Shown here: positions 262-5,530 of the stretch, one piece after another | Position numbering within the stretch: the stretch's first letter is position 1 | Layout: every line of letters starts with the position of its first letter | Source: Candidatus Hydrogenedentes bacterium CG07_land_8_20_14_0_80_42_17 | GTDB taxonomy: Bacteria; UBA8481 | DNA length: 5,530 nucleotides | Assembly: GCA_002780065.1 (NCBI GenBank) | Contig: PEWQ01000154.1 | Span: forward strand, 1-5,530 | Reading direction: 5' to 3' | Translations under genes and position numbers: made by a program | Notes under the pieces: generated by a model | The model's database searches: none | Told to the model about the DNA's origin: nothing | The model's input: the letters and a program-made list of their open reading frames with translations, nothing else

Positions 262-1722
262 TCACTGTCTTTGAATCGACTCCAGCCTCCCGTTTATGGC
301 TCTGATTATTTTTTCCCATACTTCAAATGGAAGGTCTGGTGCTCCTGACTCACTGAATGAACCTATGACTCTTTCGTTGATAATCAGATTGGCAATGATA
401 GTCAGTTTGCCGTTTTGAACCTTGTATTCTCCTTCTACAACAAATGGCCCTGATGAATTGTAAAAGCCTTTCTTCTTCCAACTCTTGTGCAGAACTTCCA
501 TCGCTGATGTTCCGAGCCAATCGTAATCCTCAGGCCCTTCTCTATATGCAAACGGCATAGCTCTTACACCTAACATAATTTTTTCTGCAACTGGAGTCGG
601 AGGAATAGGCTCAAGATATTCGGAGGACTCTTCTTCAACACTGACGCTGACAGTTATGTGTGAACTTGCCGCCTGATTTTTTTGAGGAGTAGGAAAAGAA
701 ATTTCAGAGCTCGGCACTGATTCTTGAGGCTTATTCGAAATGGTTTGATAGTCCGGTTCACGCCTTGCCTCTCCAAAAGCATACGAGAGCGAAAATCTAT
801 GGTTGTCGCCAAGCCTTTCAAATGGAACGTACGCATAATCCAGAGAGACCCCGGCGAGAGTGACTCCTGCTCCTGCGGTAAAACCTTTGTAGTCGCTTGT
901 GTTGTTGTCGAATCGATATCCGCCTCTTAGCGCTAGAGCGGGAATTGGAAGAACCTCTGCGCCTGCTGAAATCACCGGAGTGTTGTCTATCGCAAGATTG
1001 GCGTCTATTCCTAAACGAAGCCGATCTCTTAAAAATCTGTTTCCCGCCGATAATTTCAAAGTGACCGGCAATGGATCCGATTCATATCTGAACCTCGACA
1101 AGAATCCTAGATTTTGAACTGCGGCGCCGAGCCTCCATGTCTTTCCAATCGGAGCATAGAGCAATCCCAAATCGTATGCTAGACCTGTTGCTGACTCGTC
1201 GGAGATGGTTTGCTGAATGAATTTTGCCGTCATGCCCCACCTGAATCTGTGAGTTCCCCACAAAAATTCATTTGAATATGCTAGAGCGAGTAAATGATCG
1301 TAAGCAGAAAAATTTCCTGCAATCGTATATGGATTTCCTGCCCCCGGCGAATTAAGAATAGTTCGAGTCATCGAACCGTAATCGAGCAAAGTATAGTTAA
1401 GCGCAAAAGTTCCGTAGGGTTTTGAAATCGGATGAGCGTAAAAGATTGAATTGAGTTTTATGTCGGCAACCAATTCCGCGTGCGAAAATTGAATCTGTTT
1501 TTTTGGCAGAGCTGAAAGTCCTGCAGGATTTGAGTAGATTGAAGCAACATCGTCTCCGAGAGCTCCGTAAGCCTCGGCAAGCGCCGCGGCTCGGGGGGAA
1601 ATAGTGAGTTTCAGAAATGATGCTCCGGTCGTCCCGAGATCTTTTCGACCGAGCGCATGAAGAGGAGGTGCTACCGAAAAGAAAATAAAAAGTGCAGTCG
1701 TAATAACAAATTTATTCTTCAT
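262..1722 (-). CDS. PorV/PorQ-family outer-membrane beta-barrel with a C-terminal TolB-N/FlgO-like extension
   Basis: A 486-aa protein. Residues 1-23 are a signal peptide (MKNK, hydrophobic core, LHA). Residues ~28-70 carry the family signature: GTTGASFLKLTISPRAAALA, then GDDVASIYSNPAGLSAL. Alternating-hydrophobicity strands continue to ~318, ending in HRFSLSYAFGE as the last barrel strand. PorV and PorQ belong to the T9SS; PorV carries CTD-bearing cargo from the translocon to the attachment complex. Known members end near the last strand. Here a Pro/Ser/Glu-rich linker (~319-380) leads to a ~105-residue domain (IMLGVRAMPF, DWLGTSAMEVLHKSW, FVVEGEYK, LTIIANLI, VWEKIIRAINGRLE) that resembles TolB-N/FlgO/CsgG-type folds and should face the periplasm. 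The start ATG overlaps the previous stop as ATGA, and no good Shine-Dalgarno lies within 12 bases, so translational coupling is likely. There are no cysteines. Family assignment is firm; PorV versus PorQ versus a lineage-specific paralog cannot be decided here. Confidence 0.95.
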   Translation of the reverse strand: MKNKFVITTALFIFFSVAPPLHALGRKDLGTTGASFLKLTISPRAAALAEAYGALGDDVASIYSNPAGLSALPKKQIQFSHAELVADIKLNSIFYAHPISKPYGTFALNYTLLDYGSMTRTILNSPGAGNPYTIAGNFSAYDHLLALAYSNEFLWGTHRFRWGMTAKFIQQTISDESATGLAYDLGLLYAPIGKTWRLGAAVQNLGFLSRFRYESDPLPVTLKLSAGNRFLRDRLRLGIDANLAIDNTPVISAGAEVLPIPALALRGGYRFDNNTSDYKGFTAGAGVTLAGVSLDYAYVPFERLGDNHRFSLSYAFGEARREPDYQTISNKPQESVPSSEISFPTPQKNQAASSHITVSVSVEEESSEYLEPIPPTPVAEKIMLGVRAMPFAYREGPEDYDWLGTSAMEVLHKSWKKKGFYNSSGPFVVEGEYKVQNGKLTIIANLIINERVIGSFSESGAPDLPFEVWEKIIRAINGRLESIQRQ

Positions 1723-4544
1723 TTAATTATTGCGACCTTTCCGATCTTCACCATTCCATTGGCTCGAATCCAGAAGATGTAAACGCCTGACGCGACATCC
1801 CTGCTGAAGTCGTTCTTCGCATCCCATTTTGCAATTACGCTGTTGCCCTGCACTTCGAATTCCGACGCATCTTCTCGATTCAATATCCTTACCCGCTCGC
1901 CGGCAACATTGAATATCTCGATTCGGTCGGTTGAAGGCGGCATGAAAGCAAAAGTGATTCTCGCAGGCAATGGATGCCCCGCATCGATGTACTCCTTTGC
2001 GTTGAACGGATTCGGATAGACAACAAGTCTGTCGAAATTCGTAATGTCTCCGGCGCCTGCCAGAACATTCCAAATAGAAAGTTCACTTGTGATTATTGCG
2101 ACTCGATCGCTGTCTACCTGAACCCACTGTGTCTTTTCTGAAGAAGGCGCAACCCACTGCTTCGAATTTTCATCGAGCTTTCTTATCACGAGTCTGCGCT
2201 CATTAACAAATCCTGGACTGTATACTGTGACGCTGTCGGTTGTAATGTAATGAATTCTTAAAGTTGCCTCGACAAAGTAATCTGAAGGAGCAATAGCTCC
2301 GCTTGGCCTTATTATTCGTATCAGCCTGATCGGAGAGTAAGTGTCGGGATAAATGCCGTTGGAGATTAGCTCGACTGTCGGATCAAAGAATATCTTTTCG
2401 TTTGCTTCATCTATAGCTGCAAGTGAAATTGCGAGTTCTGTTTCAGTGAAGTTTGCGTAGTCGTAAATTTCATCGTAATTCAAAATTTGAAGATAATAAT
2501 ATGTATCATTGTAATTCAGAGATGATTTTGTAATTTCGATTTCGGTAACTCCCAGCGCGTCGGTAAATGTAGATATGATGCTGTCTGATGGACTCTTGAT
2601 TTGACATTGCCCAATGTTTGAACCGATGGATTCACCGTCAACTGCAACGGAAAATATTCTTGCATAATAAGTTGTATTCGAAATCAGACCGGATGTTTCG
2701 ATTACATTTACGTTTGTTGCAGTCGTGCAGACTCTTGCTGATGCAATTCCGGAATCGACTTTTGATAAATTGGAATCGAGATAAATTTCGTAGTGGTCGA
2801 TTAAGTTTATGTTCTGAGCTGGAGGCATCCACGAAATTATTGCGCGTGTATCCCACGCGGTGACAGACAATCCGACGGGTGGAAGCAGTGCTGGTGGGAA
2901 CGGAGTAGAAACGGAAAGTTTAGCGGTTGTGGGAACGTTCCAATTATCTCCGGTGACGTTCCATTCGTTGTTGCCGGAGTCACCGTAAACTTTGTTGATT
3001 ACATCTCTGGCAGGATTCAAATAATCGTTTCCTGTAGAAAATGCCTCTGTCCATATTCTTGGAACAAAACCGAAAGGAGCAGAATAAGTGAGAGCAACTT
3101 CTATCCATGATGTTTCATTATTTGTCGAGCGCGATATTAATGCATTACCTTGACTTGACCACGAGGAACCATCCCACTTCATCAGCTCGGCAACATCAGC
3201 CGGAGGCCCATTCGTTTGGTCGGAAGTTTTAATGAATACTGCATACTCGGGACGCCGAGAAGGAAATGCGACATTCTTTGCATAACTGCCAAGCGAGGCA
3301 TGCTTCAAGTCAACTGCGCCTTGCGAATCTCCGGTTGTGTCGATCAATAAAACGTAAGCGCCCCAGTTTGCTTGAAAAATATCTCCGGCAATTTCCAGCG
3401 CATAGTACAGATATTGAGCATCGCGAGTCACCCACATTCGAGTGAGATCCAGATTCGAAAAAGATTGGTCGCCGCGAGGATCGTTGGCAATTGGAGATCC
3501 ATACATGGCATCGATGCTCCCATCGATTTCGACCGCAGGTTTAATCCATTTTACTTCTTTGTATCCGCCGGACCACTCGAACTGTTTTGTCTCGTAGCTC
3601 GACATGCCGTATGCGTTAACTGTTTTGATTGTGTAAACGAATACCGAGTCGGGTTGAGCAACGATAGATGTATCTATTAGATATATTGGCGAGTTCCATG
3701 GATTGCTGTCGTCTTCATCGGAATATATCGAAAACCCGGTGACTGTTTGAGTTATGTTCTGAAACGGCAATTGAGAGAGTGGAGTAATTGGATTTGATTC
3801 AGCTCGAAGAATTTGAAATCCGTAAAGTGGTGCGCCTGACAAAAAGCGGCTTGCGCCTTCTACGTGCGGAGCAAAATTATCTCCGCCGATAGAGTAGTCC
3901 CATGAAAGCTGAGCCTTGGACGTTCCAATTTGCAGTGCATTTACGTCGTAGCTGTTCGTTCCTTCGAGACTCCCTGAGGTATCATGGTCAGTACCTTGCG
4001 AAATGAGAGTTGTCGCCAGCCACGATGCAAGAAACGGATTGGCGATTGAAAATGTCGTGTCCGCGCCTTGTTCACCCCAAACAGATTTATCTCCATACGC
4101 GTTATACACGACATATCCGTTGCTTGCATTTGATGGAATGGTAACGGTGCGACTTCGGTTCGAATCTTGATTTCTTGTGCCGTTCGGTTCAGTATTTAGA
4201 AATGCGTCAGTGGAGTCCGGCTCGAATTCAGGAATCCGAAATTCAAAATAGTATTGATAACTAGCGCCGGGATAGACTGTTGCCATCACTGCCCAAGAGC
4301 CGTCGCCGAGCGGCGTCATTATCAACCCTGATTTTGAATCGACAGTATTGTCGGAAGGATTAGCTACAATTATTTTAACTGAACTTTCAGGTGTGGTTGC
4401 TCCTGTGAAGAGAATTGCTTTTGGAAAATCTGCAAATGGTTTTTGGACCGGCAATGCAATAATTGACGGAGCAGGCAATATAAATAATAGAAACGATAAA
4501 TAAATCATAAAACGCATCAATTTCATATTGACTGTTAAAAGCAT
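1719..4544 (-). CDS. Multidomain secreted protein with C-terminal T9SS (type A) sorting domain; probable non-catalytic surface protein
   Basis: A 941-aa protein counted from the ATG at 4544. Residues ~7-30 (MKLMRF then a hydrophobic stretch ending SIIA) form a signal peptide. Residues ~43-137 resemble an early-set/CBM48-like domain, with GDGSW, YPGASYQYYFEF and a closing NRSRTVTIP strand. Residues ~138-326 include an FN3-like module shared with the upstream gene. Residues ~331-546 resemble CBM9/DOMON-type glycan-binding domains (VEIDGSIDAMYGSP, then W-V-T-R-D-x-Q-Y-L-Y-Y-A-L). Residues ~555-649 are an FN3 domain (ISWMPP, HYEIYLD, TYYARIFSVAVDG) holding the protein's only two cysteines. Residues ~656-833 are beta-rich and unassigned, with a W-V-x-P-S...S-E-L-S-I-W pattern common just before sorting domains. 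Residues ~838-941 are the T9SS CTD: YPNPF, an amphipathic ITFAF strand, GERVR, WDAKN, SGVYIFWI and the final GKVAIIK. The expected route is Sec export, T9SS passage across the outer membrane, CTD removal and surface attachment. No glycosidase or protease domain was recognised, so a binding or scaffold role is an inference. Confidence 0.95.
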   Translation of the reverse strand: MLLTVNMKLMRFMIYLSFLLFILPAPSIIALPVQKPFADFPKAILFTGATTPESSVKIIVANPSDNTVDSKSGLIMTPLGDGSWAVMATVYPGASYQYYFEFRIPEFEPDSTDAFLNTEPNGTRNQDSNRSRTVTIPSNASNGYVVYNAYGDKSVWGEQGADTTFSIANPFLASWLATTLISQGTDHDTSGSLEGTNSYDVNALQIGTSKAQLSWDYSIGGDNFAPHVEGASRFLSGAPLYGFQILRAESNPITPLSQLPFQNITQTVTGFSIYSDEDDSNPWNSPIYLIDTSIVAQPDSVFVYTIKTVNAYGMSSYETKQFEWSGGYKEVKWIKPAVEIDGSIDAMYGSPIANDPRGDQSFSNLDLTRMWVTRDAQYLYYALEIAGDIFQANWGAYVLLIDTTGDSQGAVDLKHASLGSYAKNVAFPSRRPEYAVFIKTSDQTNGPPADVAELMKWDGSSWSSQGNALISRSTNNETSWIEVALTYSAPFGFVPRIWTEAFSTGNDYLNPARDVINKVYGDSGNNEWNVTGDNWNVPTTAKLSVSTPFPPALLPPVGLSVTAWDTRAIISWMPPAQNINLIDHYEIYLDSNLSKVDSGIASARVCTTATNVNVIETSGLISNTTYYARIFSVAVDGESIGSNIGQCQIKSPSDSIISTFTDALGVTEIEITKSSLNYNDTYYYLQILNYDEIYDYANFTETELAISLAAIDEANEKIFFDPTVELISNGIYPDTYSPIRLIRIIRPSGAIAPSDYFVEATLRIHYITTDSVTVYSPGFVNERRLVIRKLDENSKQWVAPSSEKTQWVQVDSDRVAIITSELSIWNVLAGAGDITNFDRLVVYPNPFNAKEYIDAGHPLPARITFAFMPPSTDRIEIFNVAGERVRILNREDASEFEVQGNSVIAKWDAKNDFSRDVASGVYIFWIRANGMVKIGKVAIIK

Positions 4545-4551
4545 ATTTATT

Positions 4552-4557
4552 TCCACC
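4552..4557 (-). promoter_or_regulatory. Shine-Dalgarno-like site choosing the ATG at 4544
   Basis: On the minus strand GGTGGA lies 7 bases before ATG (4544-4542). It matches GGAGGA at five of six positions with normal spacing. The first in-frame candidate, GTG at 4556, lies inside this motif and so would have no ribosome site of its own. Later in-frame ATGs (4526, 4517, 4508) have no purine-rich element before them. The ATG at 4544 is therefore preferred, though a start at 4526 would still leave a complete signal peptide. Confidence 0.55.
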
Positions 4558-4666: not shown

Positions 4667-5530
4667 TCAACCGATGTTACGCTTGATTTTTACTGCTGTC
4701 GCAGGCATTCGAAGATCAGGCCTTCTTACACCGTCAATGTAAGGTGTGAGATAAACCCGTCCTGTTGTGCGTCCGTCAGGAAATACAACTTCGTCGTTGA
4801 AATGCTCTACGATGAAGAAGACTCGAATCGCGGGGCCTCGTGTAATTGAATCGTTTCCACCGCTGAAGTCCTGACGAGTTGTATCGTTATTCAGATATTG
4901 ATATGCATTGTACCAAGTCACGCAATAATAAAATGTGCTGACAGTGTCAGGCATCGATGTGTCAATACAGTTAGTCACATTGAAGGAATTATTATCGTCG
5001 TCAGCATAGTTTGTATCGCCGCCATTGGTTACGAGTGTAGTAATGTCGTTAAATGCCAACCCTGAAAATCCGGCTTGCGCAGGTGAATCCGAGCGCCAGA
5101 TGCGGAATCCGTATTGCGGTGAACCTTTGAGAGTTTGTGTTCCAATATAAGTGTTGGCGCCCATGACTGACGGAACAAATATTTCAGCGCCGCCTATATT
5201 GAACGTCCATGAAAGCTGGAATGAAGAGTCGCCTGTCTGGAGCACATCTAATCCGTAAGCATTGGTTCCATCCATATTGCCGAAATAAGTATCAGGAGAA
5301 CCGTTTGAAACTCGAGCAAAAGTGTCGGCCGGCACGTTTAGCCCGGCCATTGTCACCCAACCGCCGTAATTAGTGAGATACGGATTTTCAGTTGTGAGCA
5401 CATCAGTATCAGGACCCTGATATCCAATTACTGAAGAATCTCCATAAACGTGATAAAGAATATAGCCATCAGTTGCAGTAGTTGGAATCAACACAGAGCG
5501 AGCTCGATTTCTATCTTGATCGCGTTCATT
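4667..5530 (-). CDS. C-terminal part of a secreted FN3-like protein, paralog of the downstream gene, no T9SS sorting domain (5' end outside window)
   Basis: Function is not recognised. The frame is open to the window edge (first visible residues NERDQDRNRARS) and ends at a TGA, leaving 287 visible residues of a longer protein. The first ~225 align without difficulty to residues ~124-326 of the next gene. Shared landmarks are the Arg-rich R-x-Q-D-x-N-R-x-R motif, a YGD-S-V-x-G-x-QG block, [DE]GTN-[SA]-Y, LSW-x(3)-IGG, YGF-x-I-x-R and a PD-[ST]-V...NAY strand pair, the last part resembling an FN3 fold. Two cysteines (NC-IDTS and YYC-VTW) lie on what should be neighbouring strands and are absent from the paralog, so a disulfide is possible. 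The last ~62 residues have no counterpart in the paralog, and no YPNPF-type sorting domain follows. The stop is 25 bases before an intrinsic terminator. By analogy with the paralog, the missing N-terminus probably carries a signal peptide and an early-set domain; this is inference. A GTG at 5494 is internal, not the start. Confidence 0.9.
   Translation of the reverse strand, partial: NERDQDRNRARSVLIPTTATDGYILYHVYGDSSVIGYQGPDTDVLTTENPYLTNYGGWVTMAGLNVPADTFARVSNGSPDTYFGNMDGTNAYGLDVLQTGDSSFQLSWTFNIGGAEIFVPSVMGANTYIGTQTLKGSPQYGFRIWRSDSPAQAGFSGLAFNDITTLVTNGGDTNYADDDNNSFNVTNCIDTSMPDTVSTFYYCVTWYNAYQYLNNDTTRQDFSGGNDSITRGPAIRVFFIVEHFNDEVVFPDGRTTGRVYLTPYIDGVRRPDLRMPATAVKIKRNIG

Follow-up and report, generated by a model that had tools for sequence, protein, structure and literature searches.

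A stretch of 5,530 nucleotides of contig PEWQ01000154.1 from Candidatus Hydrogenedentes bacterium CG07_land_8_20_14_0_80_42_17, analysed in full and referred to here as the window, encodes a 486-residue protein in which a PorV/PorQ-family barrel, a disordered linker and a compact domain are almost certainly joined in one chain. Both fold and sequence profiles assign the compact domain, which is distinct from the barrel, to the TolB-N/FlgO/CsgG kind. The gene is coupled to an upstream gene for a product with a type IX-like tail, and this coupling, which the first-pass annotation of the DNA did not use, gives the strongest hint of what the protein does. The arrangement suggests a one-piece anchor from surface to periplasm, a barrel made together with a surface protein that it probably holds.

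Architecture of the fused chain

The fused gene is read from the minus strand, and its product is divided as follows:

262..1722, minus strand: gene of the fused PorV/PorQ-family barrel (486 aa), one intact open frame
1654..1722, minus strand: likely signal peptide, residues 1-23 (MKNKFVITTALFIFFSVAPPLHA), recognised by eye from its basic start and hydrophobic core
775..1632, minus strand: 14-stranded barrel, residues about 31-316, from the PorV_fam match, AlphaFold strands and Foldseek
583..768, minus strand: flexible Ser/Pro/Glu-rich linker, residues 319-380, from composition and pLDDT
265..582, minus strand: short FlgO/TolB_N/CsgG-type module, residues 381-486, probably periplasmic, from AlphaFold and from fold and profile matches

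Window positions 265-768 correspond exactly to residues 319-486, the part of the protein that follows the barrel. The NCBIfam model NF033709 (PorV_fam) matches residues 31-316 with E 2.2e-48 and 165.5 bits against a cut-off of 90, spanning the whole model (1-326 of 326), and because this match ends at 316 the residues after about 318 form an extension. The full-length AlphaFold model, computed from the window protein and three relatives (four sequences) and of moderate confidence in the barrel, places the last barrel strand at 306-316 and a folded domain at 386-485, in agreement with the first-pass annotation, which had ended the barrel near residue 318 and counted some 168 residues beyond it. 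The linker was likewise correctly described as rich in Pro, Ser and Glu, as residues 319-380 contain 11 Ser, 9 Glu and 9 Pro among 62, and the pLDDT falls under 50 at 324-383. Residues 381-486 are folded rather than disordered, since the module modelled alone reaches a mean pLDDT of 84.4, and its order of elements by DSSP (E-E-H-E-E-E-H) matches the list of strands and helices proposed from the letters. A reading of the extension as extra barrel strands is ruled out by the AlphaFold models of the domain and of the full protein. Scans of the window protein with Pfam and NCBIfam gave no match in the post-barrel part.

Identity of the barrel

The barrel strands are modelled at 75-316 and form a 14-stranded, FadL-like barrel like that of PorV. 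The top Foldseek match is PorV from the SprA complex (6h3i_F, E 9.9e-12), which ranks above FadL. When the PDB is searched with a profile of the entire fusion, only two kinds of protein come up, PorV at the barrel (E 2e-28) and FlgO at the end (E 0.0017). The equivalog cut-offs are missed both for PorQ (123 of 220 bits) and for PorV (53.2 of 250 bits). Judged by its sequence, the window barrel belongs to the PorV/PorQ family, yet it is not a PorV or a PorQ in the strict sense. Family and fold are thus common to PorV, PorQ and the window barrel; PorV and PorQ chains end near their last strand. In type IX secretion a single PorV handles many type A cargoes; each of the two genomes compared here has 14-15 paralogs, most of them beside a tail-bearing gene of their own.

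Fold and sequence kinship of the module

In Foldseek searches the module matches TolB best (E 2e-4); GNA1162, PelC and LpoB, whose domains are likewise of TolB-N type, come next with HPF interspersed, and the periplasmic domain of CadC is also among its fold matches. Alignment with VIA-align gives Z 10.9 for TolB (rmsd 2.9, 100 aligned), Z 10.4 for CsgG (rmsd 2.4, 101 aligned) and Z 10.4 for FlgT. HPF, a cytosolic ribosome hibernation factor, ties at Z 10.4 in the same comparison and has an identical beta-alpha-beta-beta-beta-alpha order, so that fold alone is indecisive for the module. A chance fold match of the HPF kind is rejected because sequence profiles pick FlgO/CsgG. A profile of nine module sequences finds FlgO as the sole sensible match in the PDB (E 0.025); with twelve sequences the top two matches are both FlgO (E 0.0019) and the next, which is unrelated, follows at 0.56. 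When only the two full-length modules were used as query, the PDB returned no sensible match. Against 290 genomes the module profile yields six matches outside the two genomes of the order, comprising one true FlgO, four proteins over the Pfam cut-off for CsgG/FlgO and one that is similar by eye. The TolB-N/FlgO/CsgG-like character first read from the letters is accordingly upheld by the AlphaFold model with its TolB match and by the profiles that find FlgO.

The module family is absent from Pfam, and the window's own module lies below every curated Pfam and NCBIfam cut-off of the FlgO/TolB_N/CsgG superfamily. Domains of the paralogs L011 and L055 match Pfam FlgO at E 0.0076 and 0.017, both under the cut-off, and the full-length domain of L055 matches nearly the entire TolB_N model at E 0.0013, also under the cut-off. 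Profile-profile comparison links the short, intermediate and full-length module types with E values from 1e-4 to 2e-9 in single comparisons. Full-length versions with an extra middle segment (L016/L076 and L055) occur in the same two genomes, and against them the profile alignment shows a gap of about 23 residues where the strand-helix segment is missing from the window module, which is the shortened middle segment that the first reading had noticed. Known proteins with a module-like fold and a weak but specific sequence similarity (FlgO, the TolB N-terminal domain, CsgG, PelC, LpoB and GNA1162) are mostly outer-membrane-associated and periplasmic; the window module differs from them in sitting on a barrel and in its missing segment. 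The module shows no peptidoglycan-binding signature, and Pfam recognises no such domain in the window protein.

Recurrence within the order

The order is poorly sampled, and the comparison covers two of its genomes, the window's own (G000; 2.39 Mb, 87% complete) and a second (G001). At least 14 PorV paralogs are present in the first and about 15 in the second, of which five and seven, respectively, bear the module. In these 12 fusions W and G positions are conserved and the module always occupies the same position past the last strand; two of them bear a second domain further along the chain, more diverged, C-terminal and set off by another Pro-rich linker (L077:6966-7274, on the C204 barrel, and L047:1598-1915, on the C110 barrel). 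In the window's genome a further PorV frame (L007, G000:C171, 1246-2598) is masked by a run of N past the barrel, which leaves its extension unreadable.

The second genome contains a one-to-one ortholog of the window protein, L019, with 50% identity over residues 14-483 and the same kind of upstream gene. Since this ortholog is joined by further module-bearing paralogs in the two genomes, the fusion is not an assembly accident; a frame shift or misjoin is excluded, as the full-length ortholog and other paralogs carry the same architecture. A single-sequence search of the genome contigs found no relative of the window fusion, and an alignment search of the same contigs found ten loci, three with the module and all three from the second genome of the order. 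The short module is restricted to the order within the sample, while the principle of fusion is wider.

The module also occurs without a barrel. In G000 (C206, L018:1390-1845) it forms a free frame of 154 residues with a lipoprotein signal and the lipobox VSAC, upstream of genes reading like phosphohexomutase, mutS and mutL, and in G001 (C109, L138:1486-3234) a LysM protein carries a window-type module at its end. Its occurrence as a lipoprotein and behind wall-binding LysM domains argues that the module belongs under the outer membrane. A periplasmic location, as the first-pass annotation proposed, also fits the topology of the barrel and the sister domains OmpA, AMIN and TPR that other PorV chains carry at the same point.

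Link with the tail-bearing gene upstream

The start of the barrel gene shares bases with the end of a longer gene on the same strand:

1719..4556, minus strand: putative cargo of 945 aa with an fn3 domain (Pfam fn3, E 3.4e-6)
1734..2021, minus strand: type IX-like C-terminal tail of the putative cargo, residues 846-941, from sub-cut-off matches to tail models
1719..1722, minus strand: ATGA overlap of the upstream stop and the barrel start, from the sequence AATTAAATGAAG (AAATGA) and the ends of the open frames

The tail matches Por_Secre_tail (E 0.0087) and TIGR04183 (E 0.0024) without reaching either cut-off, and the C-terminal end of the PorU model matches it as well. Its last 95 residues are 68% identical to the tail of the gene preceding L019, and the nearest relatives of the window barrel and of the window tail are both found in the L019 pair. 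At window positions 4667-5530 lies a gene open at its 5' end; its product shares 38% identity with residues 128-344 of the putative cargo and has no sorting tail.

Across the two genomes 20 of 29 PorV genes lie directly behind a tail-bearing gene, far beyond the chance expectation of about 0.5% per gene, a rough estimate from about a dozen tail genes among some 2,300 genes per genome. Barrel and tail also co-vary. In the two-genome set their distances correlate with a Mantel r of 0.668, reached in 0 of 5000 permutations, a value that co-duplication of barrel-tail pairs would also yield as the set consists mostly of paralogs; for all 78 pairs r is 0.483 (0 of 2000 permutations), to which shared descent contributes because the set covers many lineages. 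Several PorV paralogs in the two genomes have the upstream tail gene and no module, and the module is therefore dispensable for the pairing itself.

Type IX components in the genomes

A frame of 2117 aa on C34 of the window's genome is SprA-like, with E 6.1e-28, yet its 95.8 bits fall short of the curated cut-off of 200, and 1 of 14 control genomes also matched. Compared by sequence with Pfam and with solved structures, this protein gave no match. The PorM/GldM model (TIGR03517), from which this 87% complete genome is distant, has no match in G000 and a best E of 0.16 in G001, and the PorU model finds matches in the window's genome via its tail region only. With PorM/GldM undetected and PorU seen by the tail region alone, type IX export here is unproven; the parts of such a system recognised in the window's genome are the SprA-like protein, which is divergent, and the tails of type IX-like form. 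The barrel had been called a type IX carrier from the letters; the family part of that claim stands, and its type IX part is weakened by this partial set of recognised components and by the missed PorV and PorQ equivalog cut-offs.

Extensions of PorV barrels in other lineages

A search for long C-terminal extensions, proposed in the first-pass annotation, returned the 12 module fusions in the two genomes and TPR, OmpA, AMIN and the family f73 elsewhere. Among 58 extensions examined, TPR is found in 27 and OmpA in 7, and AMIN and fn3 are also present; as the PorV loci were chosen partly for long frames, the extension figures (60 of 138, and the set of 58) are counts and not rates. In family f73 (L102:1483-3873 and L103:1196-3652, from G072 and G213) a PorV barrel, a FlgO-type domain, TPR, a CsgG-type domain and OmpA follow each other in one chain of about 800 aa, and the window module profile matches L102 at E 1.5e-8 and L103 at 8.4e-10. 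Like the window protein these chains place FlgO-/CsgG-type domains after a PorV barrel; unlike it they have these domains at full length and also carry TPR and an OmpA domain that binds peptidoglycan. A C-terminal OmpA domain on PorV barrels was also seen in three other genomes (L156:2432-3292, together with AMIN, L150:941-1531 and L068:2825-3301). Other extensions have no recognised family (L160:1442-2026, L169:1663-2331 and L053:3092-3388); those of L160 and L169 gave no match in Pfam or NCBIfam, and those of L160 and L053 resemble further module variants.

The spread of TPR, OmpA, AMIN and FlgO/CsgG domains behind PorV barrels across several lineages points to periplasmic tethering as a general property of carrier barrels, one that evolved more than once. 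Searches of open-access literature gave no account of a PorV-family barrel extended by FlgO/CsgG-type, TPR or OmpA domains. Each part of the window protein, taken singly, is of a known kind.

Proposed function and alternatives

In known systems PorP retains type B cargo on the outer side and contacts PorE, a peptidoglycan binder, on the inner side (PMC9143113, PMC10202324), PorQ retains PorZ through the uncleaved tail of PorZ (PMC10202324), and PorV receives type A cargo from SprA (PMC10994853). PorP/SprF with PorE resembles the window pair in having a FadL-like barrel encoded beside its cargo, and the window barrel would likewise hold cargo outside and be anchored from within. The two differ in that the periplasmic part of the known system is a separate multidomain peptidoglycan-binding lipoprotein, whereas in the window it is fused and of the FlgO type, and in that the window barrel is of the PorV/PorQ family. 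By analogy, the window fusion is most likely a covalent counterpart of PorP-PorE.

That the fused barrel serves as a carrier or anchor dedicated to the upstream protein, with its periplasmic dock built in, has, in our judgement, about an even chance of being correct. Starting from the observed architecture, fold, recurrence, coupling and barrel-tail co-variation, the 945-aa protein would be exported via a divergent SprA-type translocon using its C-terminal tail, and the same tail would then keep it attached to its own PorV/PorQ-type barrel on the outside, the two proteins being presumably translated from one coupled message. On the inner face the flexible arm of 60 residues would present the small FlgO/TolB_N-type docking domain to a periplasmic partner, either an assembly of outer-membrane lipoproteins or a component attached to peptidoglycan, and the surface protein may thereby be held, or the carrier handled, from inside. 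The anchor reading is supported by the domains at the sister position in other lineages (OmpA, AMIN and TPR), which grip peptidoglycan or partners.

The strongest alternative, possible though distinctly less probable, is that the module acts during translocation as a docking or release element connecting the carrier with either the SprA-like translocon or some ring or motor in the periplasm, rather than in later anchoring. FlgO, CsgG and PelC, relatives of the module, form multimers on the periplasmic side of the outer membrane. A FlgO-domain protein is present in PDB 9yds as 58 chains of one protein, and the five to seven module-bearing carriers per genome would be expected if they had one common partner. 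In the F. johnsoniae translocon SkpA contacts the periplasmic face of PorV, and energy input is needed to pull PorV off (PMC10994853). However, export as such cannot need the module when PorV paralogs with an upstream tail gene lack it, and PorM/GldM was not detected in either genome.

Two further roles for the module appear improbable, each to a similar degree. As a sensor or activator it would be altered by cargo binding outside, with an outcome such as LpoB-like activation of wall synthesis or CadC-like reporting, in keeping with the fold matches to LpoB and to the CadC periplasmic domain; a disordered linker of 60 residues is however poorly suited to conformational signalling, and no synthase or regulator gene adjoins the pairs inspected. 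A module that merely serves its barrel, as an aid to folding or stability or as a block of the pore from inside, would agree with its small size and position in cis, but sister barrels lacking it are intact and common, and the module also exists without a barrel (L018 and L138). That the barrel is an ordinary FadL/UPF0164-like channel outside protein export, with the adjoining tail genes a coincidence, is very improbable, for although UPF0164 members are known in Treponema and Pfam UPF0164 matches the barrel weakly, this reading runs against the coupling to tail genes, the co-variation and the rank of PorV from the SprA complex above FadL as a fold match.

A more far-reaching reading, which we regard as a long shot, is that the FlgO-type modules of several carriers, perhaps together with the free lipoprotein, build a ring beneath the outer membrane or attach to one there. 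In a type IX-like system found outside Bacteroidota, such a ring would stand in for the PorK/N ring, and the carrier of every surface protein would then plug into a common periplasmic machine. How type IX carrier barrels are tied to the envelope and how the match between carrier and cargo arises are open questions in the field, and fusions of a PorV barrel with a dock, encoded beside a cargo gene, expose the physical connection itself in a form that can be cut and swapped.
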